Shown in pieces: positions 2,575 through 24,603 of a stretch of 64,000 bases of DNA. Every line of letters starts with the position of its first letter. Within the stretch, counting starts at the first letter, position 1. The notes below the pieces were generated by a model, which saw only the letters and a list, made by a program, of their open reading frames with translations, did no database searches and had not been told where the DNA came from. A program made the translations under genes and the position numbers. The DNA is from Caballeronia insecticola (GTDB lineage Bacteria; Pseudomonadota; Gammaproteobacteria; Burkholderiales; Burkholderiaceae), in assembly GCF_000402035.1 (NCBI RefSeq), contig NC_021288.1:682001-746000 (forward strand). The letters run 5' to 3'.

Positions 2575-3531
2575 ATGAGTCTCAGACTTCCTTCGCTGCA
2601 GGCGCTGCTCGTCTTCGAAACTTCCGCGCGGCTGTTGAGCTTCACCAAGGCGGCCGGCGAGCTGAACGTGACGCCCGTCGCCGTGAGTCGCATGGTGGCG
2701 CGCCTCGAAGACGCGCTCGGCTTCAGGCTCTTCGACCGCACGAAGTCAGGGCTAACCCTGACCGATCGCGGTGCAACATTGCAGCGCGCCGTCGCGTCCG
2801 GCTTCGGGCAGATCGGTGACACGATCGAAGAACTCAAACGCGATCTGGCTCGCGGCGAAATCGTCACGCTCTCGCTGGCAAGCGGCTTTGCCGCGCTGTG
2901 GCTTCTGCCGCGCTATGCCGCATTCCGCCAGGCGTTTCCCACCGTCAATCTCCGTTTGCAGGTCATGCCGGGACGGCTATACGGGCCGCTCGACGATGCG
3001 GACCTGGGCATCCGCCTGCACGGACCCGGCTCGGAAAACGATCCGTCGTGTCTGTGTCCGGAGATCATCGTGCCGATATGCAGTCCGAATTATCTGGCCG
3101 AATTCGGCGCGCTCGATGATGCGGCGAAGAGCGCCGAAGGTCACGCCTACATTCATCTCGACGTGACCACGCATTCATGGGCCGACTTTCACCGGGCGAC
3201 GGGACTCGCGAATCGAGGCATCGGCCGCGCCGTGCATCACACCGATCCGGGCCTCGCCGTGCAATGCGCGATGCTCGGCCAGGGCGTCGTGCTGGGCTGG
3301 CTGCTCGCAATCGCCGCGCCGCTCAACGAGGGCAAGGTGATCCCTGCATGGAACCGGTATATCGACACCGGCTGTCATTACGTGCTGGAATACCGCTCGT
3401 CGAATCCGTCTGAGAACACGCGCCGCGTCGCGCAATGGCTCATCGACGAAATGAAGCAGGAACTCGACGGCGCACGACGCGTGCTCGCACCGATGACGGC
3501 GATCTGCCGCAGCCGCGCCGCCTCCGTCTGA
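2575..3531 (+). CDS. LysR-family transcriptional regulator (GcvA-like)
   Basis: The product is 318 residues. The N-terminal winged helix (MSLRLPSLQALLVFETSAR, then SFTKAAGELNVTPVAVSRMV) is of the GcvA/AmpR branch, followed by a LysR substrate-binding domain with LASGFAALWLLPRYAAF. I chose the ATG at 2575 because it places the DNA-binding domain at the very N-terminus; an in-frame ATG at 2545 is possible. The gene is divergent from the flavin oxidoreductase gene with 129 bp between the starts, the usual arrangement for a LysR protein and its target. It converges with the next LysR gene, leaving only a 3-bp gap between the stop codons. Confidence 0.9.
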   Translation: MSLRLPSLQALLVFETSARLLSFTKAAGELNVTPVAVSRMVARLEDALGFRLFDRTKSGLTLTDRGATLQRAVASGFGQIGDTIEELKRDLARGEIVTLSLASGFAALWLLPRYAAFRQAFPTVNLRLQVMPGRLYGPLDDADLGIRLHGPGSENDPSCLCPEIIVPICSPNYLAEFGALDDAAKSAEGHAYIHLDVTTHSWADFHRATGLANRGIGRAVHHTDPGLAVQCAMLGQGVVLGWLLAIAAPLNEGKVIPAWNRYIDTGCHYVLEYRSSNPSENTRRVAQWLIDEMKQELDGARRVLAPMTAICRSRAASV

Positions 3532-3534
3532 ACG

Positions 3535-4476
3535 TCATGCCTGCAAAGCTGCGCGCGAACGCGCACGCCGCGTCGGCGCGACGACTTCCGCCAGCAGTTC
3601 CTCATGCAATTCGCGCAGGACCTCGACGAACGCAGACGCCAGCCGCTCGCGCGGCCGATGCGGCGGAAACAGCAGATAGGTGGGAAAGAGCGTTGCCGGC
3701 AGGAACGGCCGGATCGCGATTTCCGGCCCCGCGTAATCGCGCGCGACGATCGGATGCGCGAGCGTCACGCCCATGCCGTGGCGGACCATCTCGCAGCACA
3801 TTGCGGTGTATTGCGCTTCGATTGCGAGCACGCGCTTCACGCCCGCGCGCTGGAACACTTCGTCCATCAGCGCGCGCGTGCCGTCGCCGTGACACAGCGA
3901 GATGAACGACTCGCCCTCCAGGTCCTCGGGCCGGATCACGCGCTTTTTCGCCAGCCTGTGACTCGCGGGCATCACGCAGACGGCGGCGACCTTCGACAAC
4001 TGCTCGACCTCGCAATCGGACGCCTCGCTGACATACACCGCGACGCCGAGATCGCAGAACTGCGATGCCGTCCAGTGATTGACCGTGCCCGACGTATTCA
4101 CATGCAGCGACACCGTCACTTCCGGAAACCGCTCGACGAAACGTTTGATTGCGTGCGGCACGAGCGTCATGCCGGCGGACGGCATTGCCGCGATGCGCAG
4201 GCGGCCGCTGCCGAGATTGCGGATTTGCGCCGCCGCGTTCGCCAGTCCCTGCAAGCCGACGAACGCGCGTTCGACTTCGCGGAAGAAGGCCGTGCCCTCG
4301 CTCGTCGGGATGAGCCGCACGCCGCTGCGCTGAAAAAGCTGCAAGCCGGTTTCGCGCTCCAGCTGCGAGATCAGACGGCTCACATTGGGCTGCGACGTGA
4401 AGAGCGCCTTGGCCGCGGCGGTCATCGATCCGGACACCATCACCGCACGAAAGGCCTCGATGTGCTTCAGATTCAT
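3535..4476 (-). CDS. LysR-family regulator, NocR/OccR-like, of the adjacent oxidase operon
   Basis: The 313-residue protein starts MNLKHIEAFRAVMVSGSMTA and continues with the helix-turn-helix residues AAKALFTSQPNVSRLISQLE, followed by a periplasmic-binding-like effector domain. This N-terminus resembles NocR and OccR, regulators of opine catabolism in Agrobacterium. It is divergent from the ABC transporter/oxidase operon that starts at 4637, with a 160-bp AT-richer gap that should hold both promoters and the operator. The pairing with opine-oxidase-like enzymes supports an opine- or amino-acid-responsive regulator. The effector itself is not visible. Confidence 0.88.
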   Translation of the reverse strand: MNLKHIEAFRAVMVSGSMTAAAKALFTSQPNVSRLISQLERETGLQLFQRSGVRLIPTSEGTAFFREVERAFVGLQGLANAAAQIRNLGSGRLRIAAMPSAGMTLVPHAIKRFVERFPEVTVSLHVNTSGTVNHWTASQFCDLGVAVYVSEASDCEVEQLSKVAAVCVMPASHRLAKKRVIRPEDLEGESFISLCHGDGTRALMDEVFQRAGVKRVLAIEAQYTAMCCEMVRHGMGVTLAHPIVARDYAGPEIAIRPFLPATLFPTYLLFPPHRPRERLASAFVEVLRELHEELLAEVVAPTRRARSRAALQA

Positions 4477-4636
4477 TGCGTGTTTTCCCTATTCTCGCTG
4501 ATCCCGATTCATATCATCCCTGCATAGCTAGGTATTTTATTCGTATTGGACGATATGTATTCACGGCGCGAAACTGCATTTCATCGACGGGCTGCGAGCC
4601 CGCTCCCCACACGTACCGGAACTGGAGATCGTCGTC

Positions 4637-5704
4637 ATGAGAAGCGCGCCGCATAGCCGTCTGTCCGTCCTGTCCCGCGCCGTTCTGGCGGGTGTCACGA
4701 TCTCCGGCGCGCTCGCGGCGCCGCTTCTGGCGCAGGCCGAGACCACGCTGTATGTGGCCAACGTCGGCGGCTCGAACGAGCAGTTGTATCGCCAGAAAAT
4801 CATTCCTCCGTTCGAGAAGGCGCACAACGTCAAGATCGTCTACGTGGCGGGCAATTCGAGCGACACGCTCGCCAAATTGCAGGCGCAGAAGGGCCATCAG
4901 CAGATCAACGTCGCGGTGATGGACGACGGCCCCATGTATCAGGCGATGCAGCTCAACCTGTGCGCGAAGCTCGACGACGCGCCCGTGATGAACGACATCT
5001 ATCCGCTCGCGAAACTCGGCGCGACGTCGGTGGGCGTCGGCATGGTGGCGACGGGTATCGGCTACAACGAAGAGGCCTTCAAGAAGGCGGGCCTGCCGCC
5101 GCCCGATTCGTGGAAGGCGCTCACCGACAAGCGCATCAAGGGCAAGCTCGGCGTGCCGCCGATCACCAACACCTACGGCCTGCATACGCTCGTGATGCTC
5201 GCGCGTCTGTCCGGCGGCGGCGAGAAGAACATCGATCCGGGCTTCGCCGAAATGACGAAGCAGGTCGCGCCCAACGTGCTGTCCTGGGCGCCGACGCCCG
5301 GCGAAATGGACGGTCAGATGCAGTCGGGCGACGTGATCCTCGCGCCCTACGGCAGCGGCCGCGCAGTGGCGCTGCAGAACACCGGCTTCCCGCTCAAGTT
5401 CATCTACCCGAAGGAAGGCGCAGTCGCGTTGCAGGTGGCGGCATGCGCCGTCGCGGAGAATGCGCAGCCCGCCTTGTCGCAGCAATTCGTGCAGTACCTC
5501 CTGAGCCCCGAAGTGCAGATGCTGCAGGCGCAGAACATCGGGCTCGGTCCGGTCAACAAGACGGTCAAGCTGACGCCCGAAGTGGCCGCGCGCGTGCCCT
5601 ATGGCCCAGAGCAAATCTCGAAACTCACCGCGATGGACTGGACCACGATCAACCAGCATCGCACCGAGTGGACCGAGCGATGGAACCGGTCGGTCGAGCG
5701 TTGA
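4637..5704 (+). CDS. ABC transporter substrate-binding protein, PotD/spermidine-putrescine-like
   Basis: The product is 355 residues with a Sec signal peptide ending in ALAAPLLAQA before ETTLYVANVGG. The fold is the type II periplasmic binding protein of the PotD/AfuA group (motifs ATGIGYNEEAFKKAG, PYGSGRAVAL). A GGAG ribosome site lies 9 bases before the ATG. It is the first gene of an operon with an ATPase, two permeases and redox enzymes, so it probably captures the substrate that the oxidases degrade. PotD homologues bind polyamines, opines, phosphonates or iron, so the ligand cannot be told from sequence. A CGGGCT/AGCCCG hairpin sits in the leader at 4588-4602. Confidence 0.88.
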   Translation: MRSAPHSRLSVLSRAVLAGVTISGALAAPLLAQAETTLYVANVGGSNEQLYRQKIIPPFEKAHNVKIVYVAGNSSDTLAKLQAQKGHQQINVAVMDDGPMYQAMQLNLCAKLDDAPVMNDIYPLAKLGATSVGVGMVATGIGYNEEAFKKAGLPPPDSWKALTDKRIKGKLGVPPITNTYGLHTLVMLARLSGGGEKNIDPGFAEMTKQVAPNVLSWAPTPGEMDGQMQSGDVILAPYGSGRAVALQNTGFPLKFIYPKEGAVALQVAACAVAENAQPALSQQFVQYLLSPEVQMLQAQNIGLGPVNKTVKLTPEVAARVPYGPEQISKLTAMDWTTINQHRTEWTERWNRSVER

Positions 5705-5734
5705 TCCTCCACCCGGCTTGAAGGAGCAAGGCAT

Positions 5735-6832
5735 ATGGCCTTTCTGACTCTGCAAGGCATCTCCAAACGATACGGCGATTTCACCGCGATCGAACAGCTC
5801 GATCTCGATGTCGAACGCGGCGAACTGCTGGCGCTGCTCGGTCCTTCCGGCTGCGGCAAGACGACGACGCTGCAAATGATCGCGGGCTTCGTCGCGCCGA
5901 CGACGGGCCGCATCACGCTCGACGGCCGCGACATCACGAACGAGCGCCCCGAGAAACGCGGCCTCGGCGTGGTGTTTCAAAGCTATGCGCTGTTTCCGCA
6001 CATGACGGTGGCGGGCAACGTCGGCTTCGGGCTGGAGATGCGCAAGGTCAAGCGCCGCGAACGCGATGAACGCGTCGCCGAGGCGCTCGCGCTCGTGCGT
6101 CTGAACGGACTCGGGCATCGTTATCCGAAGGAGCTGTCGGGCGGCCAGAGGCAGCGCGTCGCCATTGCGCGCGCCATCGCCATGCAGCCCGAACTGCTGC
6201 TGCTCGACGAGCCGATGTCCAACCTCGACGCCAAGCTGCGCGAGGAAATGCACATCGAATTGCGCGCGATCCAGAAGCGCCTCGGCATCACGACGATCCT
6301 CGTCACGCACGATCAGGTCGAAGCAATGACGATGAGCGACCGCATCGCGGTGATGCATCGCGGCACGATCGCGCAACTCTCCACGCCCTACGACGCCTAC
6401 GAGCGCCCCGCAACGCCGTTCGCCTCGACCTTCCTCGGGCGCACCAATGCGTTCTCCGGCGAAGTGCTGCGGCGCAATCCGCGCTGCGCGATCGTCGATG
6501 TCGCGGGCACCACGCTGCACGTGCCGCACGAAGGCCGTCATGTCGATGGCGCGGTGAACGTCTATATCCGTCCCGAGAAAGTGCATCTCGCGAACGGCAA
6601 TCCGGCCGATGCCCGCGTGCGCGGACGCATCGCGACGCGCGTGTTCGTCGGCAATCAATGGCTGCTGGAAGTGGAGACCGGACTCGGCAAGCTGCGTGTC
6701 GCGCAGCCGAACCACGGCGCGCCGCCGCCCGAAGAAGGCGACGAAGTGGGCCTCGCCTGGACCGACGACGACCTGCGCGTGCTCACGCAAGACGCGCCGA
6801 ACGCGAAGGAGAACGCTCATGGCCACGCTTGA
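5735..6832 (+). CDS. ABC transporter ATPase, PotA-like
   Basis: The product is 365 residues. Walker A is GPSGCGKT (36-43), the signature is LSGGQ (134-138), Walker B is LLLLDEP (154-160) followed by MSNLDAKLRE, and a switch histidine lies in LVTHDQ. A C-terminal TOBE-like domain follows, with VYIRPEKVHLA. This is the full-length PotA/FbpC type that powers import through two permeases. An AAGGAG ribosome site precedes the ATG. Its last 14 bases overlap the next permease gene, which suggests translational coupling. Confidence 0.92.
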   Translation: MAFLTLQGISKRYGDFTAIEQLDLDVERGELLALLGPSGCGKTTTLQMIAGFVAPTTGRITLDGRDITNERPEKRGLGVVFQSYALFPHMTVAGNVGFGLEMRKVKRRERDERVAEALALVRLNGLGHRYPKELSGGQRQRVAIARAIAMQPELLLLDEPMSNLDAKLREEMHIELRAIQKRLGITTILVTHDQVEAMTMSDRIAVMHRGTIAQLSTPYDAYERPATPFASTFLGRTNAFSGEVLRRNPRCAIVDVAGTTLHVPHEGRHVDGAVNVYIRPEKVHLANGNPADARVRGRIATRVFVGNQWLLEVETGLGKLRVAQPNHGAPPPEEGDEVGLAWTDDDLRVLTQDAPNAKENAHGHA

Positions 6833-7691
6833 CGACACCCGCCCCGGCGCCGCGCCGTGGCTGCTGTCGGGGCCCGCGCTGCTGCTGTTCATCGGCTTGT
6901 TGCTGGTGCCGCTGATGCTCACGCTGATGTTGTCGTTCCGCGTGTTCAGCGATACGGCCGGCGTCACGTCCGTCTATACGCTCGGCAACTACTGGGAAGT
7001 GGTGAGCGACCCGTACTACGGCACGATCTTTCTGCGCACGGCCGGCCTCGCGTTCGCGGTCACGTTGCTGTCTATCGTGCTCGGCGTGCCGGAGACCATC
7101 GTGCTCGCGCGCATGAAGCGGCCGTGGCAGTCGCTGTGTCTGTTGATCGTGCTCGGGCCGCTGCTCATCTCGGTCGTCGTGCGCACGCTCGGCTGGCAGA
7201 TTCTGCTCGGCAACAACGGCGTGCTCAACAACGTGCTGCAGGCGCTGCATATCACCGACGAACCCATCCGCCTCGTCTTCACGATGACGGGCATGATCAT
7301 CGCGCTCACGCATGTGCTGGTGCCGTTCATGGTGATGTCGGTCTGGGCGACGATGCAAAAGCTCGACCCGCAAGTGGAATGGGCCGGCCGCTCGCTCGGC
7401 GGCTCGCCGTTCGCGGTGTTCCGCCGCGTGGTGCTGCCGCAGATCATGCCGGGCGTGCTGTCGGGCTCGATCATCGTGTTCGCGCTGTCGGCGTCCGCGT
7501 TCGCCACGCCCGCGCTGATCGGCGGACGGCGTCTCAAAGTGGTCGCCACCGCCGCCTACGACGAATTCCTCGGCACGCTCAACTGGCCGCTCGGCGCGAG
7601 CATCGCGGTGCTGCTGCTGATTGCGAACGTCGCGATCGTGATGGGTTGCAGCCGCCTCGCCGAACGTCGCTTCCGGCACATCTTCGACTGA
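6819..7691 (+). CDS. ABC transporter permease, PotB-like
   Basis: The 290-residue inner-membrane protein has about six hydrophobic segments and a C-terminal EAA-type loop (AGRSLGGSPFAVFRRVVLPQIMPG) typical of binding-protein-dependent permeases. The ATG at 6819 overlaps the end of the ATPase gene by 14 bases and is preceded by a GAAGGAG site, so it is preferred over upstream in-frame starts inside the ATPase gene. It pairs with the following PotC-like permease. Confidence 0.9.
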   Translation: MATLDDTRPGAAPWLLSGPALLLFIGLLLVPLMLTLMLSFRVFSDTAGVTSVYTLGNYWEVVSDPYYGTIFLRTAGLAFAVTLLSIVLGVPETIVLARMKRPWQSLCLLIVLGPLLISVVVRTLGWQILLGNNGVLNNVLQALHITDEPIRLVFTMTGMIIALTHVLVPFMVMSVWATMQKLDPQVEWAGRSLGGSPFAVFRRVVLPQIMPGVLSGSIIVFALSASAFATPALIGGRRLKVVATAAYDEFLGTLNWPLGASIAVLLLIANVAIVMGCSRLAERRFRHIFD

Positions 7692-7707
7692 GTTCCGGAG
7701 AACCCTC

Positions 7708-8505
7708 ATGAACCGCAACGGCTTTCTCGGGCTCGCCTTCAACGCCTGCTTTCTCACGTTCATCATGGCGCCGCTCGCGGTGGTGATGCTCGTGGCCTTC
7801 ACCGACAAGGGCTTTATTTCGATGCCTTTCGACGGCGCGTCGCTGCGCTGGTTTCGCGCGATCATCGAGAACGGCGATATCGTCGCGGCGTTCTGGCTGT
7901 CGGTGCGGCTCGCGTTCGCGGCGGCGACCATCGGCGTGTTGCTCGCGGTGCCGGCGGCGCTCGCGATCGCGCGCTATCGCTTTCCGGGCCGCGCTGCGCT
8001 CACGAGCTTCTTTCTCTCGCCGATGATGATCCCCGCCGTCGTGCTCGGCATCGCGTTCCTGCGCTTTCTCTCGCTGCTGCATCTGTCGGGCTCGTTCTGG
8101 TCGCTGGTCGCCGCGCACGTGATCATCGTGCTGCCGTATGCGCTGCGGCTCGCGCTGTCCTCCGCCGTCGGCCTCGACCGCGACGCTGAGCGCGCCGCGC
8201 TGTCCTGTGGCGCGAGCCGCTTCACCGCGTTTCGCCGCGTGGTGCTGCCGATGATCCGCACGGGCGTCGCGGGCGGCTGGGTGCTGTCGTTCATCCAGAG
8301 CTTCGACGAGCTGACCATGACCATCTTCGTTGCGACGCCCGGCACCACCACGCTGCCCGTCGCCATGTACAACCAGATCGCGCAGACGATCGATCCGCTG
8401 GTCGCAAGCGTCTCGGCGGTGCTGATCGTCGGCACGGTTCTGCTGATGATTCTGCTCGACCGCATGGTCGGACTGGATCGCATTCTGATCGGAGAAGCCC
8501 GATGA
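7708..8505 (+). CDS. ABC transporter permease, PotC-like
   Basis: The product is 265 residues with multiple membrane helices and the EAA loop ALSCGASRFTAFRRVVLPMI. It is the second permease of the importer. A GGAG site lies 8 bases before the start. Its stop overlaps the start of the next oxidase gene in an ATGA, which ties transport and oxidation into one transcript. Confidence 0.9.
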   Translation: MNRNGFLGLAFNACFLTFIMAPLAVVMLVAFTDKGFISMPFDGASLRWFRAIIENGDIVAAFWLSVRLAFAAATIGVLLAVPAALAIARYRFPGRAALTSFFLSPMMIPAVVLGIAFLRFLSLLHLSGSFWSLVAAHVIIVLPYALRLALSSAVGLDRDAERAALSCGASRFTAFRRVVLPMIRTGVAGGWVLSFIQSFDELTMTIFVATPGTTTLPVAMYNQIAQTIDPLVASVSAVLIVGTVLLMILLDRMVGLDRILIGEAR

Positions 8506-9638
8506 CATTTTCAAGCTCCGCCAGCCCCGATGTGATCGTCGTGGGCGGCGGCCTGGTCGGCTCGGCCGTCGCCTACGGCCTCGCTCGCGAAGGCGCGCGC
8601 GTGACCGTGCTCGACGAAGACGACGGCGGCTTTCGCGCCTCGCGCGGCAACTTCGGCCTCGTATGGATTCAGGGCAAGGGCTACGGCCTGTCGCCGTATG
8701 CGAGCTGGTCGCGCAGTTCCGCGACGCGCTGGCCCGCCCTCGCGCAAGCCCTGCTGAACGAGACCGGCGTCGATGTGGCCTTGCGTCAGCCGGGCGGCTT
8801 CCAGTTCCTTTTCAACGACGCGGAGTTCGCCGAACGCGAGCAACGCCTCGCGACGCTCAAGGCCGAACTCGGCGACTACCCGTTTCAGATGATGAGCGCC
8901 GCCGAAGTGCGCGAGCGCATTCCGCAGATCGGCCCGGATGTGATCGGCGCGAGCTATACGCCGATGGACGGGCACGTGAATCCGCTCAAGCTGCTGCGCG
9001 CGCTGCACGTCGCGATGCAGGCGCGCGGCGTGCAACTCGTGTCGGCGGAGCGGGCGCTGCGCATCGTGCCGGAGGCGAACGGCTTCACCGTGCACGGCAA
9101 GCGCGGGACGTATCGCGCGGGGCGTGTCGTGCTGGCGGCCGGACTCGGCAATCGCGCGCTCGCGCCGTTCGTCGGACTGAATGCGCCGGTCGCGCCGAAT
9201 CGCGGACAGGTGCTGGTGAGCGAACGCGTCGCGCCGTTTCTGTCGTATCCGACGCTCAACGTGCGCCAGACCGACGAAGGCAGCGTGCAGTTCGGCGATT
9301 CGATGGAAGAAGTCGGCTTCGACGATCTCACGACGACGCCCGTGCTCGCCGATATCGCCCGGCGCGGCGTGCGCGCCTTTCCGATGCTCCGGCACGTGCG
9401 GCTCGTGCGCATGTGGGCGGCGCTGCGCGTCTACAGCCCCGACGGCTTCCCGATCTACGACGCATCCGAGGCGCATCCGGGCGCGTTCGTCGTCACCTGC
9501 CACAGCGGCGTGACGCTCGCCGCCGCGCATGTGCTGCGCGTGTCGCCGTGGATTCTGGGCGCGCCGATGCCCGACGAACTGCCCGTGTTCTCCGCGCGCC
9601 GCTTCGAGAACGCGCAGGAACTGACTACCGCTCATTGA
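8502..9638 (+). CDS. FAD-dependent oxidoreductase, DAO family (HcnC/OoxB-like)
   Basis: The product is 378 residues. An N-terminal dinucleotide fold, GGGLVG (15-20), with VIVVGGGLVGSAVAYGLA, belongs to the D-amino-acid-oxidase/sarcosine-oxidase/glycine-oxidase family. The C-terminal FAD motif region VTCHSGVTLAAAH is also present. In opine oxidases, HCN synthase and hydroxyproline dehydrogenases a DAO subunit works with a small [2Fe-2S] protein and an HcnB-like subunit. Both of those follow immediately here, so this is probably the catalytic subunit that oxidises a C-N bond and releases an imine. The substrate is unknown. Confidence 0.88.
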   Translation: MTFSSSASPDVIVVGGGLVGSAVAYGLAREGARVTVLDEDDGGFRASRGNFGLVWIQGKGYGLSPYASWSRSSATRWPALAQALLNETGVDVALRQPGGFQFLFNDAEFAEREQRLATLKAELGDYPFQMMSAAEVRERIPQIGPDVIGASYTPMDGHVNPLKLLRALHVAMQARGVQLVSAERALRIVPEANGFTVHGKRGTYRAGRVVLAAGLGNRALAPFVGLNAPVAPNRGQVLVSERVAPFLSYPTLNVRQTDEGSVQFGDSMEEVGFDDLTTTPVLADIARRGVRAFPMLRHVRLVRMWAALRVYSPDGFPIYDASEAHPGAFVVTCHSGVTLAAAHVLRVSPWILGAPMPDELPVFSARRFENAQELTTAH

Positions 9639-9645
9639 GTGCCTT

Positions 9646-10005
9646 ATGACTTCATCGACACACACGCTCTTCAGGCCGCTCGCCGATTCGCGCGACGCCA
9701 GCATCGAGATTTTCTTCAACGGCGCACCGCTTGCCGTGCCCGCCGGCCGTTCGGTCGCGGCGGCGTTGCTCGCGGCAGGCGTCTCGCGCTTTCGTGCGAC
9801 GCCGGTCTCGGGTGCGCCGCGCGCGCCCTACTGCATGATGGGCGCGTGCTTCGAATGCCTGGTCGAGATCGACGGCGTGCCGAGCCGCCAGAGCTGCATG
9901 GTCGAAGTGCAGGCCGGCATGCGCGTGCGCTCGCAGGAAGGCGCGCGCGACCTGCCGCCGTCGATCGATGCCGATGTCCCGCTGGAGAACGCGCATGGCC
10001 GCTGA
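9646..10005 (+). CDS. Small [2Fe-2S] ferredoxin-like subunit (HcnA-like)
   Basis: The product is 119 residues. Cysteines C63, C68, C71 and C84 form C-x4-C-x2-C-x12-C, the plant-ferredoxin-type cluster motif seen in HcnA and sarcosine oxidase alpha N-termini. It begins with a beta-rich stretch (IEIFFNGAPLAVPAGRSVAAA). It should pass electrons between the FAD subunits. The gene overlaps the start of the next subunit by 11 bases. The ribosome site is weak (GAGTG), consistent with coupling to the upstream gene. Confidence 0.88.
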   Translation: MTSSTHTLFRPLADSRDASIEIFFNGAPLAVPAGRSVAAALLAAGVSRFRATPVSGAPRAPYCMMGACFECLVEIDGVPSRQSCMVEVQAGMRVRSQEGARDLPPSIDADVPLENAHGR

Positions 10006-11401
10006 TTTCGCTTCGCAAACCGTCGATGTCGTCGTGGTCGGCGCCGGTCCCGCCGGCATGAGCGCCGCGACGCGCGCCGCCCGCGCCGGTCTCGAAACCG
10101 TGCTGATCGACGAGCAGGACACCGTGGGCGGCCAGATCTATCGCGCGATCGGCCGCGCCGATGCACGCCGCAAGCAGATTCTCGGCCCCGACTACGCGGC
10201 GGGCGCGGCGATTGCCGAAGCGTTCGCGGCATCGGGTGCGCGTCACCTGACCGGCGCGAGCGTGTGGCAAGTCACGCGCGAGTGCAGCGTCAACTATCTG
10301 AAGGACGGCAAGATCGGCTCGTTCGATGCGCAGCGCGTGATTCTCGCGAGCGGCGCGCTGGAGCGGCCCTTTCCGATTCCCGGCTGGACGCTGCCCGGCG
10401 TGTTGACGGCGGGCGCCGCGCAGATCCTCCTGAAAAGCGCCGGCGAAGTGCCCGCCGCGCCGCCGGTGCTCGCGGGCTGCGGGCCGCTGCTTTATCTGCT
10501 CGGCTGGCAATACGTGCGCGCCGGCGTGCCGATCCGCGCACTCGTCGATACGACGCGCCACGAAGATCGCTGGCGTGCGAAGCGGCACATGTTGTCGGCG
10601 TTGCGCGCGTGGCCGTTCTTGTCGAAGGGGCTGCAACTGATCCGCACGCTGCGCGAAGCGGGCGTGCCGATTTTCGAGGCGGCGGACGATCTGCGCGTGG
10701 AGTCGCGCATCGGCACGGACGGCGTCGAGCATGCGCACGCGCTGGCGTTTTCGACGCAAGGCGCGGCGCAGCGCATCGAAGCCGATGTGATCCTGCTGCA
10801 TCAGGGCGTCGTACCGAATACGCAGTTCACGCAGGCGTTGCGCGCGGCGCATCGCTGGGACGATGCCCAGTTATGCTTCACGCCGAAGACCGACGCCTGG
10901 GGCGAACTGGATGTGCCCGGCATCTTCATTGCGGGCGATGGCGCGGGTATCGGCGGCGCGCAGGCGGCCGCGTTGCAGGGCACGCTTGCGGGACTGGCCG
11001 CCGCGGCGCAACTCGATGCCGTCGCTCAAGCCGCCCGCGACGCCGAAGCCGCCCCGCTGCGCCGCGCGCTCGCGGGCGTGATGCGCATCCGGCCGTTTCT
11101 CGACAGCCTCTACCGTCCGCGCCACATCAACCGCATTCCGGGCAACGAGACGATCGTGTGCCGTTGCGAGGAAGTCACGGCGGGTGAATTGCGCCGCTTC
11201 GTCGAACTGGGCTGCGTCGGGCCGAATCAGGCGAAGTCGTTCGGGCGCTGCGGCATGGGACCGTGTCAGGGCCGCATGTGCGGCCTCACGGTGACGGAAG
11301 TGATTGCGGATGCGCGCGGCGTCTCGCCCGGCGAAGTCGGCTATTACCGCATTCGTCCGCCGATCAAACCGCTCACGCTCGGAGAACTCGCCGGTGAATG
11401 A
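9995..11401 (+). CDS. FAD/NAD(P)-type oxidoreductase subunit with C-terminal BFD-like [2Fe-2S] domain (HcnB/OoxA-like)
   Basis: The product is 468 residues starting MAADFASQTVDVVVVGAGPAG; this start at 9995 is chosen because it sits just before the nucleotide-binding motif. The central pyridine-nucleotide-disulfide-oxidoreductase fold includes a GDGAGIGGAQAA motif. The last 90 residues hold a bacterioferritin-associated-ferredoxin-like cluster domain (CRCEEV, then GRCGMGPCQGRMC). This matches the alpha subunit of opine oxidase, HCN synthase and D-hydroxyproline dehydrogenase. Together with the DAO and [2Fe-2S] proteins it forms a complete HcnABC-like set. Confidence 0.9.
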   Translation: MAADFASQTVDVVVVGAGPAGMSAATRAARAGLETVLIDEQDTVGGQIYRAIGRADARRKQILGPDYAAGAAIAEAFAASGARHLTGASVWQVTRECSVNYLKDGKIGSFDAQRVILASGALERPFPIPGWTLPGVLTAGAAQILLKSAGEVPAAPPVLAGCGPLLYLLGWQYVRAGVPIRALVDTTRHEDRWRAKRHMLSALRAWPFLSKGLQLIRTLREAGVPIFEAADDLRVESRIGTDGVEHAHALAFSTQGAAQRIEADVILLHQGVVPNTQFTQALRAAHRWDDAQLCFTPKTDAWGELDVPGIFIAGDGAGIGGAQAAALQGTLAGLAAAAQLDAVAQAARDAEAAPLRRALAGVMRIRPFLDSLYRPRHINRIPGNETIVCRCEEVTAGELRRFVELGCVGPNQAKSFGRCGMGPCQGRMCGLTVTEVIADARGVSPGEVGYYRIRPPIKPLTLGELAGE

Positions 11402-12575
11402 CGCGAACGACGCCACCGCGCCGATGGAAGCGGACGTGCTCGTGATCGGCGGCGGCCTGCACGGCACGAGCAGCGCGTTTCACACGGCACGCCGCGGCGC
11501 GAAGGTCATCGTGCTCGAAGCCGATTATGTCGCGCGCCATTCGTCGGGCGTCAACGCGGGCGGCGTGCGCACGCTCGGGCGTCCGCTGCCGGAAATTCCG
11601 CTCGCGCTGATGTCGCGTGAAATCTGGCACGGCATGACGGATTTCATCGGCGAGGACGGCGGTTTCGTCGCATCGGGCCAGTTGAAAATCGCCGAAACCG
11701 ACGACGAGCTCGAAGCCTGCCGCCAGCGCGTCGCGCTGCTCGAAGCGCATGGCTTCACGCACGAAAAGGTGATCGACCGCGCGAGCGTGCTCGAACTCGA
11801 ACCGGCGCTCGCGAAGCACGTGACGGGCGGCATCTGGGTCGAGCGCGACGGCTACGCGCTGCCGTTTCGCACGACCACCGCATTCCGTCTCGCCGCGCAA
11901 CGGCTCGGCGCGCGCTTTCTGGAAGGCACGCCGGTGCGTCGCATCGAACAACGCGGCACGCGCTGGTTTGCGCACACGCCGCGCGGCACGTTCAGCGCGG
12001 AAAAGCTGCTCGTTACGGCGGGCGCGTGGTCCGGCGAGCTTGCGAAACAGGTGGGCGAGCCGGTGCCTGTGCATCCGGAAGGACTCATGCTGATGGTGAC
12101 GCATCGCGTCGCGCCGTTTTGCCGCGCGACGCTCGGCGCGACAGGCCGGCCGCTCTCGTTCAAGCAGTTCGATAACGGCACGGTGGTGATCGGCGGCAAG
12201 CTGATCGGCATCGCGGACCTGGCGAATCGGCACGGCGAAGTGGACTTCGTGCGGCTCGTGAAAAGCGCGCGCACCGTCACCGATCTCTTTCCGCACTTGC
12301 GCCATCTCGGCGTGAATCGCGCGTGGGCCGGCGTCGAGGCCTTCACGGAAGACGAATTGCCGGTGATTTCCGCGAGCCGCAAGGCCGCGAACCTGTACTA
12401 CTCGTTCGGCTATTGCGGCAGCGGCTTTCAGCTCGGGCCGGGCTGCGGCAAGCTCGTGTCCGAACTGATGCTCGACGGCACGCCGTCGCTTTCACTCGAT
12501 GCATTCGCCATCGATCGCTTCGCGCGCCACGCGGCGCAGGCGGGCGCGGATGCATCGCCTTTGGTCGCTCATTGA
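11394..12575 (+). CDS. Second FAD-dependent oxidoreductase, DAO family
   Basis: The product is 393 residues from a GTG start at 11394. The GTG overlaps the previous stop by 8 bases and follows a GGAG site with a 9-base gap; an ATG at 11424 is an alternative. The FAD motif is DVLVIGGGLHGTSSAFH, followed by HSSGVNAGGVRTLGR as in glycine/sarcosine-type oxidases, and GYCGSGFQLGPGCG near the C-terminus. It is a paralogue of the first DAO gene of the operon rather than a duplicate, as the sequences clearly differ. It may be an alternative catalytic subunit or act on the product of the first step. Confidence 0.87.
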   Translation: MNDANDATAPMEADVLVIGGGLHGTSSAFHTARRGAKVIVLEADYVARHSSGVNAGGVRTLGRPLPEIPLALMSREIWHGMTDFIGEDGGFVASGQLKIAETDDELEACRQRVALLEAHGFTHEKVIDRASVLELEPALAKHVTGGIWVERDGYALPFRTTTAFRLAAQRLGARFLEGTPVRRIEQRGTRWFAHTPRGTFSAEKLLVTAGAWSGELAKQVGEPVPVHPEGLMLMVTHRVAPFCRATLGATGRPLSFKQFDNGTVVIGGKLIGIADLANRHGEVDFVRLVKSARTVTDLFPHLRHLGVNRAWAGVEAFTEDELPVISASRKAANLYYSFGYCGSGFQLGPGCGKLVSELMLDGTPSLSLDAFAIDRFARHAAQAGADASPLVAH

Positions 12576-12626
12576 GTCCACATTGAGCACTCATTGAGCA
12601 CATCGACTTTCAACGGAGAAACACGC

Positions 12627-12980
12627 ATGAACGATATCGTTCGAATCGACACCAATCAGCGCATGAGCCGCGTCGTCAAGGCGGCGGGCCTCGTGTTCGT
12701 CGGCGGTCAGACGTCCGCCGATCTCACGCCCGACATCAAGCTCCAGACCGCCCGCGTGCTGGAGAAGATCGACGGCTTCCTGGAGAAAGCGGGCATCGAC
12801 AAGACGCGGCTCATCTCGGCGCAGGTCTGGCTCGCGGACATCGCCCGCGATTTCGGCGGCATGAACGAAGTGTGGGACGCATGGGTGCCGCAAGGCTGCG
12901 CACCGGCGCGCGCAACGGTTCAGGCGCAGCTCGCGTCGCCCGCGTTGCTCGTCGAGATTGCCGTCGTGGCGCTCGCCTGA
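12627..12980 (+). CDS. RidA/YjgF-family enamine/imine deaminase
   Basis: The 117-residue protein matches the RidA fold: GLVFVGGQTSAD near the N-terminus, the LISAQVWLADI segment, and PARATVQAQLASPALLVEI with the Arg and Glu that bind the substrate carboxylate and water in this family. RidA proteins hydrolyse reactive enamines and imines, which FAD amine oxidases produce. Its place as the last gene of the oxidase operon is therefore functionally coherent. A GGAG site lies 8 bases before the ATG. Confidence 0.9.
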   Translation: MNDIVRIDTNQRMSRVVKAAGLVFVGGQTSADLTPDIKLQTARVLEKIDGFLEKAGIDKTRLISAQVWLADIARDFGGMNEVWDAWVPQGCAPARATVQAQLASPALLVEIAVVALA

Positions 12981-12999
12981 TACGCAACCCCGGCGTGCG

Positions 13000-13905
13000 C
13001 TATTCCGGCGCCGCCGCCTCGCCGCTCGCTCTCAGCCAGTCGATGAAGTCGCGCATGTGCACGGGCTTGTCCGCATCGAGCGGGACCAGCGCGTAGTACG
13101 TCGAACCCTTCGCGCCGATCTCGGGAAACGGCACCTGCACGCGCCCGGCTTCGCGATCGGCATCGAGCGTCGGAAACGGCCCGATGCCGAAGCCCAGTCC
13201 ATCGACAACGGCTTGCAGCGTCACGAAGAAGTGATCGAACCTCAGCATCCGATTGGCGCGCAGCGACGGCTCGCCTGCCGCTTCGAGCCAGCTTTCCCAG
13301 TCGCCGGGACGCGTCTCGCTCGTGAGCCAGGTCACGGACGCCAGCCCGCCTACTTCCCAGGCGCCTGACACGCCCGTCTGCGCCATCAGCCACGGACTCG
13401 CGATCACCGTATTGCGCTCCTGAAACAACGGCCAGCTCTGGAACTGTCCGCCGGGCGGAACGTGCCGGCGAATCGCGACGTCGAAGCTGCCCCTGAGCGC
13501 GGGCTCCGTCGACATTGCGGTGGACACGCGCACATCGACATCCGGATACTGCTCCGCGAAACGCGGCAAACGGGGAATCAGCCAGCGCATTGCCATGGTC
13601 GCGGACGCGCTCACGCGGATCACCTTCACGCGCTGGTTCTTGCCATAGCGCTCGGCCGCATCGGCGATGTGATCGAACGCCGCGCTGATCTCGCGTGCGA
13701 ACGCCCGCGCATGCGACGACGCCACCATGCTCTGGCCGTCGCGCGCGAACAGCGGCTGGTCGAGCCAGTCTTCCAGAATGGAAATATGCCGGCTCACCGC
13801 GCCGTGCGTCAGGTTGAGCTCGCGCGCCGCAGCCGAATAGCTGCCCGCGCGCGCCGCGACTTCGAATACCCGCAGCGCGTTGAGAGGGGGAAGCTTGTGT
13901 CGCAT
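13000..13905 (-). CDS. LysR-family regulator of the phosphonoacetate operon (GcvA-like)
   Basis: The product is 301 residues from the ATG at 13905, where the sequence begins RHKLPPLNALRVFEVAARAG, the standard start of GcvA-type LysR proteins. A longer in-frame start at 13965 would add 20 residues rich in charged residues without family support. The C-terminal effector domain is complete. The gene is divergent from phnA with about 100 bp between starts. LysR regulators next to phnA are known from phosphonoacetate-degrading pseudomonads, so phosphonoacetate or its import is the likely signal. Confidence 0.87.
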   Translation of the reverse strand: MRHKLPPLNALRVFEVAARAGSYSAAARELNLTHGAVSRHISILEDWLDQPLFARDGQSMVASSHARAFAREISAAFDHIADAAERYGKNQRVKVIRVSASATMAMRWLIPRLPRFAEQYPDVDVRVSTAMSTEPALRGSFDVAIRRHVPPGGQFQSWPLFQERNTVIASPWLMAQTGVSGAWEVGGLASVTWLTSETRPGDWESWLEAAGEPSLRANRMLRFDHFFVTLQAVVDGLGFGIGPFPTLDADREAGRVQVPFPEIGAKGSTYYALVPLDADKPVHMRDFIDWLRASGEAAAPE

Positions 13906-13952
13906 ATGTGAGTTTTCTTGACAGGTACCGCGTCTTTTTTTCGGTTGTGTGA

Positions 13953-15227
<1,275 letters not shown>

Positions 15228-15275
15228 TCCCGACACCGCGAGCGCGACACAGAATCGCGCCTGCAAGGAGACATC

Positions 15276-16565
15276 ATGCCCTCGGATACACCGGATATTC
15301 TGGAATACGAAGCATCGCGCCGCGAGACGACGTTCGCGCAATACAGATGGCGCGCGCTCATCGGCGTCACGTTCTGCTATCTCTTCTATTACACCGGCCG
15401 GCAGACGCTCGGCTTCGCGGTCAGCGGGATTCAGCTCGACTACGGGCTGTCGAAATACGAAATCGGCTGGATCAGCGCGACGATGCTGTGGTGCTATGCG
15501 GGCGGCCAGTTCATCAACGGCAATCTCGGCGACAAGCTCGGCGGCAAGACCATGATGGTGGCGGGCGCGCTGCTTTCGCTCGCGGCGAACTGGCTGTTCA
15601 GCTTCGGCCACTCGTTCCTGTTCTTTCTGCTGGCGTGGGGCCTGAACGGCTATTTCCAGTCGATGGGTTTCGCGCCCGGCAGCCGCCTGCTGTCGAACTG
15701 GTGGGGGCACAAGAATCGCGGCTTCGTGTACGGCGTATACGTGGGGTTTTCGGGCTTTTCGTCGGTGCTCGCGTATATTCTGCCGGTGCTGATTCTCGGC
15801 ACGATGCATCTCGGCTGGATCTGGATCTTCCGCCTCGCGCCGCTCTCGATGCTGCTCGGCGCGCTGGTCCTGCTGCTGTTCGTCGCCGAACGTCCCGAGG
15901 ACAAACGTCTTCCCGCCGTGGAACGAGACGCCGGCGACACCGCGCCGGGTTCCGCCGGCGACGAGTTGAGCAGCGCGCAACGCTATCTGCTCGTGCTCAA
16001 AAACTGGAAGCTCTATATCACGGGCCTCGCGATCGGCCTGCAGAACGCGGCGCGCTATGCGCTCGTCGTGTGGGTGCCGGTTCACTTCCTCGGCATGGAC
16101 TGGAAGACCTCGTCGTCGCTGATCGATCCGAAGTGGATCACGGTCGCGTTGCCGGTTGGCATGGCGCTCGGCTCGCTGTCGAACAGCTGGATCTCCGACG
16201 TGCTGTTTCAGGGCAAACGCTACGTGGCGATCGTCTGGTACATGGTGCTCGCCTCGGCGACGGCCGTGTGCATGATGTTCGTCCCGCACGGCAGCATGCT
16301 CGGGGTCGGCCTGCTGTTCCTGTGCGGCTTCTTCGTGTTCGGCCCGGCCTCGTCCTTCTGGGCGCTCTGCCCCGATCTGTTCGGACGACGCGCGGCAGGC
16401 ACGGCAACCGGCGTGCTCAACACGATGTCCTACGCGTTCGCGGGTGTCGGCGAGCCGGTGATCGGCCACGTGATCGACGCGACCGGGCATACGTCGATCA
16501 TCTTTCCGATCGTGGCCGGTCTGTGTGCGACGAGCGCGCTGATGTCGATGCTGATCAAGCGTTGA
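15276..16565 (+). CDS. MFS transporter, organophosphate:phosphate antiporter (GlpT-like) family
   Basis: The product is 429 residues with 12 predicted membrane segments. The N-terminal motif YLFYYTGRQTLGFAVSGIQ and the GNLGDKLGGKTMM loop belong to the OPA branch of the major facilitator superfamily. An AAGGAG site lies 5 bases before the ATG. It follows phnA by 48 bp in the same direction, so it probably imports phosphonoacetate or a related phosphonate. The family is clear from the sequence; the substrate comes only from the neighbour. Confidence 0.87.
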   Translation: MPSDTPDILEYEASRRETTFAQYRWRALIGVTFCYLFYYTGRQTLGFAVSGIQLDYGLSKYEIGWISATMLWCYAGGQFINGNLGDKLGGKTMMVAGALLSLAANWLFSFGHSFLFFLLAWGLNGYFQSMGFAPGSRLLSNWWGHKNRGFVYGVYVGFSGFSSVLAYILPVLILGTMHLGWIWIFRLAPLSMLLGALVLLLFVAERPEDKRLPAVERDAGDTAPGSAGDELSSAQRYLLVLKNWKLYITGLAIGLQNAARYALVVWVPVHFLGMDWKTSSSLIDPKWITVALPVGMALGSLSNSWISDVLFQGKRYVAIVWYMVLASATAVCMMFVPHGSMLGVGLLFLCGFFVFGPASSFWALCPDLFGRRAAGTATGVLNTMSYAFAGVGEPVIGHVIDATGHTSIIFPIVAGLCATSALMSMLIKR

Positions 16566-21740: not shown

Positions 21741-23522
21741 TTAGCGCGCGCGGCGCTTGAGCCAGGAAGAAACCGCGACGACGAGCGCAATCAGGATGAT
21801 GAGCGTGGTCGATACGGCGGCGAGCGTCGGCGTGATCGCAAGCTGGATGTCGTCCCACATCTGCTTGGGCAGCGTCGAATTGATGCCGCCGCTCACGAAG
21901 ATCGCGATGGTCAGATCGTCGAACGACACGAGGAACGCGAACAGGAACGCGGCGGTCACGCTCGCCATCAACAGCGGCAGCACGACCGACGTGATGCGTC
22001 GCAAGGGCGATGCGCCCATTACGCGCGCGGCGTCGTCGAGACGCCAGTCGAAGCGCTGGAAACCTGCGGCGAGCGTCACGACTACATAAGGAATCGCGAG
22101 CACCGTATGTCCGATGACGAGGCCGAGATTCGTGCCCGTCAGACCGAAGCGGCCGAACAGATACAGCAGCCCGACCGCCACGACAATGCGCGGCACGATC
22201 AGCGGCGCGACCAGCAGCGCGAACATCGGCTTGCTCGCGCGGCGCGGCATGCGCGTCATCGCGAGCGTCGCGCCGAAGCCGAGCAGGAGCGACAACACGG
22301 CGGTGCCGAGACCGACTTCGAACGAGCGGATGATCGCGCTATGCCACACCGGCGAATCCATGAAGGTGCCGAACCACTTCATGCTGAAGAGCTTCGGCGG
22401 AAACGCGATGTAATCGCTCTTCGTGAACGCATACGGAATCACCGAGAGCACCGGCGCCACCAGCACCGCCATGATCACGCACGTATAGAAACCGAGCGGG
22501 CTCGCGGCGCGTGCAGTCACGGCGGCGTTCGCCTTGCGTCGCATCACGAAGGGCGAAAACAGGCGGCCCGCCGTCATCAGCAGCGCCAGTCTGAAGCCCT
22601 GCGCACGCGAGCCGCGCGAACGTTCCGTCACTTCGCCCGTGAGCGACGTGAGGCCGACCATGCGGTCGTAGACGAAGAAGATCACGATCGAGCAGATGAG
22701 CAGCACCGTCGACAACGCGCCCGCGAAACGCATGTCGAACAGTTCGAGCACGGCGGAAATGACAAGCTGCGCGATCATCGTTTCCTTCGGCGAGCCGAGC
22801 AGCGCCGGCACGATGAAGAAGCCGAGACTCGAAATGAACACGAGCAGTCCCGCCGCCGCAACGCCCGGCGACGAGAGCGGCAGGAACACCGTGAAGAAGC
22901 TCATGCCGCGTTCGGCGCCGAGCGTTTCGGCGGCTTGCGCGAGACGATCGTCGATGCCGCGCATCACGGGCAGCATGGTCATCACGGCGAGCGGCAACAT
23001 CGAATGAACCATGCCGATGAGCACGCCCGTCAGCGACGGAATCGTGCCGCTGGTTTCGCGCACGAGTCCGAGCGACAGCGCAATGGTCGACAGCACGCCG
23101 GTCTTCGAAAGCAGCAGCATCCACGCGTAGGTCTTCACGAGATAGCTGGTCCAGAACGGCAGCATGATCCACAGCAGCCAACGCTCGCGCATGCGCTCCG
23201 ACAAGCGGCTCAGCATGTACGCGACCGGATAGCCGAGCAGAATCGACAATGCCGCCGTCATGAACGAAATGGCGAAGGTGATCCACAGCACCTTCGCATA
23301 GACCGGCGTGCGCGCAATGCGCTCGAATTGCGCGAGGCCGATCTGCCCATCGGGGCCGACGAGGCCGCCTTGCAGAATCTCGCCGACCGGCACGATAAAG
23401 AACACGAGCAGGAACAACAGCGTCGGCACGATCGGCAGAAAGCGCATGCAGCGCGCGAGCCACATGGCGCGCCCGCGACGCGCGGCATCGTTCTCGCGAT
23501 GCGCATGAAGGGCGATGGTCAT
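21741..23522 (-). CDS. ABC transporter permease, two permease units fused
   Basis: The product is 593 residues with about 12 membrane segments. Two separate EAA loops are seen: AETLGAERGMSFFTVFLPLS in the first half and ARVMGASPLRRITSVVLPLL in the second. This equals a PotB-like and a PotC-like permease in one chain, as in FbpB-type iron importers, while the partner ATPase and binding protein are PotA/PotD-like. It replaces the two separate permease genes seen in the other importers of the window. It is spaced 9 bp from the ATPase gene and 26 bp from the ligase gene. Confidence 0.9.
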   Translation of the reverse strand: MTIALHAHRENDAARRGRAMWLARCMRFLPIVPTLLFLLVFFIVPVGEILQGGLVGPDGQIGLAQFERIARTPVYAKVLWITFAISFMTAALSILLGYPVAYMLSRLSERMRERWLLWIMLPFWTSYLVKTYAWMLLLSKTGVLSTIALSLGLVRETSGTIPSLTGVLIGMVHSMLPLAVMTMLPVMRGIDDRLAQAAETLGAERGMSFFTVFLPLSSPGVAAAGLLVFISSLGFFIVPALLGSPKETMIAQLVISAVLELFDMRFAGALSTVLLICSIVIFFVYDRMVGLTSLTGEVTERSRGSRAQGFRLALLMTAGRLFSPFVMRRKANAAVTARAASPLGFYTCVIMAVLVAPVLSVIPYAFTKSDYIAFPPKLFSMKWFGTFMDSPVWHSAIIRSFEVGLGTAVLSLLLGFGATLAMTRMPRRASKPMFALLVAPLIVPRIVVAVGLLYLFGRFGLTGTNLGLVIGHTVLAIPYVVVTLAAGFQRFDWRLDDAARVMGASPLRRITSVVLPLLMASVTAAFLFAFLVSFDDLTIAIFVSGGINSTLPKQMWDDIQLAITPTLAAVSTTLIILIALVVAVSSWLKRRAR

Positions 23523-23531
23523 GGCGTGTCC

Positions 23532-24593
23532 TCAGGCGTGCAGCAATGTCGTGCGATAGGGGTCCCACACGAGTCCCACCTTGTCGCCGATGCGCGGGCT
23601 CAGGCTGCGTTCGCATCGCACGGTGAGTTCGCTGCCGTCGTTCATCGCGAGTTGCACGCGCGTGTCGCTGCCGAAGAACACGACATCCGCGATCGTGCCG
23701 TCGACAAAGCCGCTTTGCGGCTCGACCAGACGCGGCGCTTCGGGACGCACGAGCAGCGTATGGCGTGCATCCGGTGCGGCCGAGACGTTCAACGGCAGCG
23801 GAATACGCCCGCCCGCCGCGAGCAGAATCGGTTCGCCGCCCGCGCCGCGTGTATCGTCGAGCGCGCCTTCGAGCAGATTCGAATGACCGATGAAACCCGC
23901 AGCAAAGCGCGTCGCGGGACGATCGTAGAGATCGGCGGGCGTGCCCACCTGTTCGATGCGCGCCTGGTTCATCAGGCAGATGCGGTCGGAGAGCGTGAGC
24001 GCCTCGTCCTGATCGTGCGTCACGTAGACGAAGGTCGCGCCGAGTTCCTTGTGCAGGCGGCGAATCTCCGACTGCATGTGCTCGCGCAATTTCTTGTCGA
24101 GCGCGCCGAGCGGTTCGTCGAGCAGAATCACCGAAGGACGATACGCAAAGCAGCGCGCCAGCGCGATGCGCTGCTGCTGCCCGCCCGACAGCTCCTTCGG
24201 AAAGCGCTGCGCGTAGTCGCCCATGCGCACCATCGCGAGCGCATCGTCGACGGCGGCGCGCACGTCCTCGCGCGACTTGCGGCGCATGCGCAGCCCGTAC
24301 GCGACGTTGTCCCACACGCTCATGTGCGGAAACAGCGCATAGCTTTGAAATACCATGCCGATGCCGCGCTTGCCCGGTTCGACATGCGTGACGTCGCGCC
24401 CGTCGATCTCGATGCGTCCCGCGCTCGGCGCGACGAGTCCCGAGATCATCTGCAACAGCGTGGTCTTGCCCGAACCCGAGGGACCGAGCAGCGTCAGGAA
24501 TTCGCCGGCCTGCACGGCAAGATCCGTCGCTTCCAGCGCAACCGAGTCGCCGTAGCGCTTCGCAATGCCGATCGCCTCGAGTTTCGAGCTCAT
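23532..24593 (-). CDS. ABC transporter ATPase, PotA-like
   Basis: The product is 353 residues. Walker A is GPSGSGKT (37-44), the signature LSGGQQQR, Walker B VILLDEPLGALDKKLRE and the switch histidine VTHDQDEAL. A C-terminal TOBE-like regulatory domain ends with VRCERSLSPRIGDKVGLVW. It drives the fused permease encoded next. It is preceded by the binding-protein gene with a 10-bp gap. Confidence 0.92.
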   Translation of the reverse strand: MSSKLEAIGIAKRYGDSVALEATDLAVQAGEFLTLLGPSGSGKTTLLQMISGLVAPSAGRIEIDGRDVTHVEPGKRGIGMVFQSYALFPHMSVWDNVAYGLRMRRKSREDVRAAVDDALAMVRMGDYAQRFPKELSGGQQQRIALARCFAYRPSVILLDEPLGALDKKLREHMQSEIRRLHKELGATFVYVTHDQDEALTLSDRICLMNQARIEQVGTPADLYDRPATRFAAGFIGHSNLLEGALDDTRGAGGEPILLAAGGRIPLPLNVSAAPDARHTLLVRPEAPRLVEPQSGFVDGTIADVVFFGSDTRVQLAMNDGSELTVRCERSLSPRIGDKVGLVWDPYRTTLLHA

Positions 24594-24603
24594 CTTGCCT
24601 TCC

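Follow-up and report, generated by a model that had tools for sequence, protein, structure and literature searches.

Organization of the locus

Within a 64,000-nucleotide stretch of Caballeronia insecticola DNA (contig NC_021288.1, positions 682,001 to 746,000 of the forward strand; hereafter the window, numbered from its first letter) we examined nine genes that place a predicted ABC importer beside predicted subunits of a flavin dehydrogenase. Open reading frame and Pfam checks confirmed nine closely packed plus-strand genes across positions 4637-12980, behind a divergent gene for a NocR-like LysR regulator (3535-4476, minus strand), which is the first gene of a conserved cassette. Their Pfam order is substrate-binding protein (SBP), ABC ATPase, two permeases, DAO, Fer2_4, a Pyr_redox/SO_alpha_A3 protein, a second DAO and RidA; successive neighbors are separated by 30, -14, 16, -4, 7, -11, -8 and 51 bp. 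The first-pass annotation had described close or overlapping genes linking uptake, a flavin/[2Fe-2S] set, a second DAO enzyme and RidA, and the coordinates, the Pfam domains and distances of -14 to 51 bp bear this out. In the corresponding locus of Caballeronia strain NK8 (L001, 15170-15850) the gap between the second DAO gene and RidA is about 680 bp, versus 51 bp in the window.

The importer, of the polyamine/opine/phosphonate type (POPT), consists of the SBP (4637-5704; SBP_bac_8/6), a PotA/PhnT-type ATPase (5735-6832; ABC_tran and TOBE_2) and two BPD_transp_1 permeases (6819-7691 and 7708-8505) whose best matches, PotB and PotC respectively, lie below cut-off. It is followed by a first DAO protein (DAO1, 8502-9638; DAO, 200 bits), a [2Fe-2S] gamma subunit (9646-10005), an alpha subunit (9995-11401), a second DAO protein (DAO2, 11394-12575, with a GTG start) and a RidA-family protein (12627-12980; Ribonuc_L-PSP, 80.9 bits). 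The PAR motif of the latter (residues 93-95) ends in Arg95, which we take to be the equivalent of Arg105 of Escherichia coli RidA.

Over 280 residues the regulator shares 35% identity with the LysR protein encoded beside nocPTQM on pTiC58, which agrees with its earlier description as NocR-like. The 160-bp gap between the LysR and SBP genes holds a 24-bp block (4534-4557) in which 22 of 24 positions are at least 95% identical and the other two 80-95% identical across 36 aligned sequences; a spaced inverted repeat is formed by CATATC (4510-4515) and GATATG (4552-4557). The conservation of this block suggests that it is a probable LysR-controlled promoter or operator. A count of promoter-like and terminator-like patterns in 3400-14100 gave 1 and 6, with means of 1.2 and 7.3 in shuffled sequence, that is, no excess.

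Subunits of the predicted dehydrogenase

Genes for alpha, beta and gamma subunits stand in tandem here, as in flavin opine dehydrogenases of the OdhABC type. The OdhA-like alpha subunit is 41% identical to NoxA, the OdhC-like gamma subunit 38% to the gamma (C) subunit of Nox, and the two DAO proteins 39% (DAO1) and 25% (DAO2) to NoxB. The ADP-binding GxGxxG motif reads GAGPAG at residue 16 of alpha, which would bind flavin adenine dinucleotide (FAD), GGGLVG at residue 15 of DAO1 and GGGLHG at residue 19 of DAO2. The gamma subunit carries C-x4-C-x2-C-x12-C at residue 63, in keeping with the pattern C-x4-C-x2-C-x11~12-C, and alpha ends in a four-Cys cluster, C-x-C-x32-C-x4-C, in which NoxA has x33; the published figure legend gives a spacing of 15~20, which fits neither the window protein nor NoxA.

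With only 27-29% identity between DAO1 and DAO2, two unrelated beta genes flank the gamma-alpha pair. In the naming of PMC4575208, DAO1 is an OdhB1-like (type 1, with Nox, Oox and B1) and DAO2 an OdhB2-like (type 2, with B2) catalytic beta subunit. The best PDB match of DAO2, by sequence and by fold, is 1y56_B, the beta subunit of the heteromeric L-proline dehydrogenase of Pyrococcus horikoshii. AlphaFold models (mean pLDDT 65.4 for DAO1 and 66.7 for DAO2) were used for fold only, since the motif stretch discussed below has low confidence in DAO1 and partly low confidence in DAO2. DAO1 also shares its fold with the flavin-containing opine dehydrogenase 7fgp of Aureimonas altamirensis, although with TMq 0.71, 25% identity and rank 23, and 7fgp is the best match of neither DAO protein. 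The closest relatives of DAO2 come from Caballeronia strain NK8 (93% identity), C. fortuita (92%) and an uncultured Paraburkholderia (93%). Among 120 listed relatives, two bear the source name "Opine oxidase subunit B"; the majority of those with a name go by FAD-dependent or FAD-binding oxidoreductase, or by sarcosine oxidase subunit beta. Against 12 close genomes the median ratio of nonsynonymous to synonymous substitution rates (dN/dS) is 0.196 for DAO1 and 0.119 for DAO2. Both beta genes are thus under purifying selection, and this speaks against regarding DAO1 as a relic.

The first-pass annotation had regarded the second oxidase as unexplained by known systems. A published precedent exists: OdhB1-C-A-B2 of Bradyrhizobium japonicum USDA110 (bll7193-bll7190) encodes the opine dehydrogenases BjOpnDH1/2 (Watanabe et al. 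2015, PMC4575208) and has the order DAO, [2Fe-2S], alpha, DAO that is also found in the window. B1 and B2 are described there as members of different subfamilies, each of which assembles with the same alpha and gamma subunits, with FAD and flavin mononucleotide (FMN). The term oxidase does not hold either, as the purified relatives are dye-linked dehydrogenases, both active on octopine (PMC4575208). There are indeed two DAO genes, as had been noted, but which of them is called the second is arbitrary, since each probably serves the same alpha/gamma pair as an alternative beta subunit. The enzyme is therefore of a known kind. We counted the shared gene order, together with the assembly of B1 and B2 on common A and C subunits, in favor of alternative beta subunits in the window; the sharing itself, established by others in Bradyrhizobium, would apply here by analogy.

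Alternatively, DAO1 could be an independent soluble enzyme, an oxidase like glycine oxidase, with DAO2 as the only partner of alpha and gamma. By sequence and by fold DAO1 does match monomeric glycine oxidases best, and it retains the equivalent of their substrate-binding Arg302 (see below). However, DAO1-like proteins are the sole beta subunit at 34 of the 68 usable alpha loci of our wider survey, as in NoxB-C-A, and in B. japonicum the A and C subunits co-purified with B1, even if most B1 was unassembled (PMC4575208). We consider a stand-alone DAO1 improbable.

An Arg/Glu exchange between the beta subunits

In a profile alignment to glycine oxidase 1ryi, Arg309 of DAO1 aligns with the Arg of the WAGLRP loop; the corresponding Arg302 of Bacillus subtilis glycine oxidase binds the substrate carboxyl group (PMC4741190, PMC3818420). 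DAO2 carries Glu315 where DAO1 has Arg309. We collected places at least 38% identical to either protein (193 for DAO1 and 161 for DAO2, the motif being covered in 191 and 160 of them, respectively), with known duplicates removed but with many close relatives included and a few genomes perhaps counted twice. The residue is Arg in 191/191 DAO1 places and Glu in 160/160 DAO2 places. The 87 loci of the wider survey taken alone give the same picture, with Arg in 62/62 and Glu in 30/30. Within these loci the residue varies at greater distance from DAO2: places 30-38% identical to it have 14 Glu, 1 Gln and 1 His, and those below 30% have 3 Arg, 2 Ile, 1 Asn and 1 Val. NoxB has Arg at this position, and the P. 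horikoshii proline dehydrogenase beta subunit has Tyr, that is, neither residue.

Because the carboxylate-anchoring Arg of DAO1 is Glu in DAO2, the two proteins probably differ in the substrate that they bind, or hold a single compound by opposite ends. We met no published account of this charge swap, with one literature search made on glycine oxidase Arg302 and none aimed at the swap; it is an addition of the present analysis.

The nearby Arg-x-Trp (FMN) motif is common to both proteins (Arg303-x-Trp305 in DAO1, Arg309-x-Trp311 in DAO2) and present at 190/191 and 160/160 places, respectively. We had considered it as proof of a heteromeric beta subunit and dropped it because the monomeric glycine oxidase 1ryi carries it too.

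Conservation and distribution of the cassette

A comparison of operon order in the family, which the first-pass annotation had proposed as a check, supports the operon. We searched 121 genomes (that of C. insecticola included), 47 of which had a DAO2 match at 1e-60, and fetched 40 loci from those. The full ten-gene order (LysR and the nine genes) is present in 33 of them. Incomplete loci have broken genes (L053, L076), are cut by a contig end (L058), lack DAO1 and RidA (L074, L077), consist of gamma-alpha-DAO2 only (L078) or lack this importer and RidA (L079). A second scan, from a Microvirga DAO2, yielded 545 relatives, and of the best 80, which are mostly Bradyrhizobium and form a best-match set rather than a fair sample, 71 have the complete ten-gene order, 7 are short of a RidA hit only and 2 are cut by contig ends. 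A few loci represent the same place under two identifiers (L001/L040, L006/L088). Since the order recurs in 33/40 family loci and 71/80 scan loci, it is not due to chance. Across 54 chosen loci, pairwise distances of SBP, DAO1, alpha, DAO2 and RidA correlate at 0.967-0.989, and such near-proportional divergence is as expected for one inherited unit. Judged by title and abstract opening, the literature search returned no article that deals with this operon in Burkholderiaceae.

In the fetched Bradyrhizobium loci the four dehydrogenase genes are flanked by the same importer and LysR gene and usually by RidA, as in the window; identity to the window proteins is about 43-52% for the dehydrogenase subunits and about 35% for RidA, in strains other than USDA110. 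We infer that these cassettes are equivalent to bll7190-7193. In genomes of B. diazoefficiens (L122), B. japonicum (L094, L151) and B. barranii (L128), the cassette is the sole strong OdhA match. A B. thailandensis OdhC-A-B cluster is also mentioned in PMC4575208.

For a wider survey we took alpha hits in partly overlapping samples of 398, 369 and 385 genomes, setting aside hits at contig edges, most repeats of the Bradyrhizobium kind and many hits of low identity. Of the 87 loci fetched, 19 were dropped (alpha below 40% identity, or short flanks), and the 68 usable ones have the forms B1-C-A (34), B1-C-A-B2 (21), C-A-B2 (8) or neither beta (5).

Several further arrangements of these genes were seen. 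A Burkholderia multivorans plasmid (L003, 2240-5089) has a second B1-C-A cluster, with a DAO1-like protein at 50% identity, directly upstream of a full cassette. On A. fabrum pAt2788b (L181, 11920-20510) DAO1-gamma-alpha-RidA and gamma-alpha-DAO2-like genes form two neighboring groups that resemble a split four-gene form; the alpha gene of the DAO1 group is annotated in two pieces. The C. insecticola genome itself has two further alpha-type clusters outside the window (L230 on G000:C3 and L227 on G000:C2). The ATPase and permeases of L230 are 52-54% identical to those of the window, and its gamma, alpha, DAO2-like and SBP proteins 27-39%.

Comparison with opine systems of Ti plasmids

The NoxB-C-A and OoxB-C-A clusters of Ti plasmids are relatives of the window genes by subunit identity (given above for Nox) and by the NocR-like regulator, but the noc region is without DAO2, RidA and a POPT-type importer, and the window operon lacks the amino-acid-type nocPTQM transporter, arginase and ornithine cyclodeaminase that together mark a noc/occ operon. 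The operon of pTiS4 (L182, 8078-15625) has the same importer type and B1-C-A order as the window, at 45-57% identity; unlike the window it is linked to traR, and it is without DAO2 and RidA. This linkage may tie conjugation to this oxidation, and vitopine or rideopine may be the compound that the pTiS4 operon serves. Type 1 beta subunits on Ti plasmids thus include NoxB (L180) and that of pTiS4, while type 2 beta subunits adjoin opine-dehydrogenase-family genes in L007 and L008. That each beta type has opine or T-DNA genes as neighbors there favors an opine-like substrate for the two alike. By gene order the hydrogen cyanide synthase HcnABC also resembles the window, with [2Fe-2S], alpha and DAO in succession.

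The importer and RidA

A complete POPT-type importer accompanies the four-gene form: it is present at 11/21 B1-C-A-B2 loci, 3/34 B1-C-A loci, 0/8 C-A-B2 loci and 0/5 loci with neither beta. Excluding the last group, this is 11/21 versus 3/42 for single-beta loci (Fisher p 1e-4, uncorrected for relatedness), an association that is new here. We attempted to predict the ligand from the SBP and abandoned this, as its nearest solved relatives, all weak PDB matches, are a mixture that includes mannopine, agropine, putrescine, iron, pyridoxal phosphate and 2-aminoethylphosphonate (AEP) binding proteins. The minus strand at 21741-25665 of the window encodes another importer of broadly this kind (a long permease, an ATPase and a binding protein, named by eye), followed by other metabolic and regulator genes (also named by eye).

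RidA follows neither beta subunit in the wider survey. It occurs on the same strand and within reach at 10/34 B1-C-A, 4/21 B1-C-A-B2, 4/8 C-A-B2 and 2/5 loci with neither beta. Hand-picked plasmid loci had suggested that RidA tracks DAO1, and this failed in the 68-locus sample.

These counts bear on a two-step division of labor, in which DAO2 would cleave the imported secondary amine, DAO1 would deaminate the amino acid so released and RidA would hydrolyze the resulting imino acid, with both beta subunits on the common alpha/gamma chassis. RidA acts on free imino acids, the strict Arg/Glu difference gives one active-site position opposite charges in the two proteins, selection constrains both beta genes, pAt2788b has the beta types in two neighboring groups with RidA in that of DAO1, and DAO1 and RidA are absent together from L004, L074 and L077. 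Yet NoxB acts on a secondary amine and has the same Arg, each beta type occurs without the other (B1-C-A alone at 34/68 and C-A-B2 alone at 8/68 usable loci), and RidA does not track DAO1. We therefore regard this scheme as doubtful.

A phosphonate gene beside the operon

Downstream of the operon, positions 13000-16565 hold a minus-strand LysR gene, phnA and a gene for a predicted major facilitator superfamily (MFS)-type transporter (by eye). The phnA gene (13998-15227) encodes a clear phosphonoacetate hydrolase (TIGR02335, 686.8 bits, cut-off 407.55). It raises the question of whether the operon acts on aminophosphonates, importing AEP or N-methyl-AEP for conversion to phosphonoacetaldehyde by a DAO enzyme of the PbfB/PbfC/PbfD kind, with phnA completing the path. 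PbfB, PbfC and PbfD, described as N-methyl-AEP oxidoreductases in PMC10590968, are likewise DAO superfamily enzymes in catabolic gene clusters, and AEP importer families are the top NCBIfam matches of both SBP and ATPase. All curated aminophosphonate models nevertheless score the window proteins under cut-off, the SBP and the DAO proteins far under it: the best scores from TIGR03329, TIGR03364, TIGR03261 and TIGR03265 are 55.4 bits (cut-off 632.8) for DAO2, 78.3 (285.1) for DAO1, 55.8 (392.75) for SBP and 380.4 (457.7; PhnT2) for the ATPase. Neither PhnY nor PhnW was found over cut-off in this genome, PhnX not being searched for.

The distribution of phnA points both ways. Within the genus, 21 of 36 genomes that have a close DAO2 (C. 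insecticola included) carry it, versus 1 of 22 that do not (p 2e-5, uncorrected for relatedness), and among genomes of at least 6.5 Mb the figures are 21/31 versus 1/9 (p 0.006); this count scores G015, with a more distant full operon (L075), and G052, with a partial one (L077), as without. Such co-occurrence stands against dismissing a phosphonate role. In the 20 other genus genomes that have both, however, many of them drafts, phnA and the operon lie on different contigs; G019 additionally has phnA at a distance of about 246 kb on the operon's own contig. No phnA hit was obtained in the 48 family-scan loci or the best 80 of 545 relatives (0/128), nor did phnA exceed its cut-off in any of 12 genomes (Bradyrhizobium, Microvirga, Methylobacterium and others) that carry the cassette. 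Moreover, phnA is parted from RidA by the LysR gene, which is convergent with the operon, and is a separate unit. Given the absent linkage, the cut-off failures and the lack of a clear PhnY or PhnW, we set the phosphonate reading aside as very unlikely.

Predicted function of the operon

Taken together, it is probable that this is a LysR-controlled operon in which an importer, an OdhABC-kind dehydrogenase with two alternative beta subunits and RidA act on an opine-like secondary amine. The best reaction class remains the one first proposed, in which an importer/enzyme operon of the opine-oxidase kind oxidizes an opine, an imino acid or an amine. The nine genes would probably form a single transcript, and the importer would take up an N-substituted amino acid, that is, an opine-like secondary amine. 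One alpha subunit (FAD, Cys cluster) and one gamma subunit ([2Fe-2S]) would pair with either DAO1 or DAO2. The substrate would be oxidized at the FAD of the beta subunit, and electrons would pass via FMN between alpha and beta and then [2Fe-2S] centers to the respiratory chain. The resulting imine would be hydrolyzed to an amino acid and a keto acid or aldehyde, and RidA may speed this step or protect pyridoxal phosphate enzymes against any reactive imine or enamine that is set free.

Several observations weigh against this proposal. The Arg-x-Trp motif is not diagnostic of heteromeric beta subunits, and the nearest solved relatives of DAO1 by sequence and fold are stand-alone glycine oxidases, so that DAO1 might act alone. 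By Pfam, no opine synthase, arginase or ornithine cyclodeaminase is among the nine genes, and the importer is of PotABCD type, unlike the amino-acid-type nocPTQM. RidA is no commoner with DAO1 (14/55) than without it (4/8; p 0.21). Finally, the octopine activity of the B. japonicum enzymes is weak, with a Km of 19.5 mM for B2 and about 50-fold less activity for B1 (PMC4575208), because of which octopine is probably not the natural substrate.

The cassette is found in many Burkholderiaceae and Bradyrhizobium genomes, and the only biochemistry that we found for it (PMC4575208) used octopine, with the high Km given above. A strict Arg-to-Glu swap between beta subunits on a seemingly common chassis predicts distinct specificities, and subunit exchange could be tested by assay. 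More tentatively, it is possible that one chassis with two swappable heads of opposite active-site charge performs two different oxidations in one catabolic route that starts from an undescribed opine-like compound of plants or soil, and that RidA removes the imine. If this were true, octopine would not be the real substrate, and for that reason the view in the literature that B1 may matter little physiologically would be wrong.

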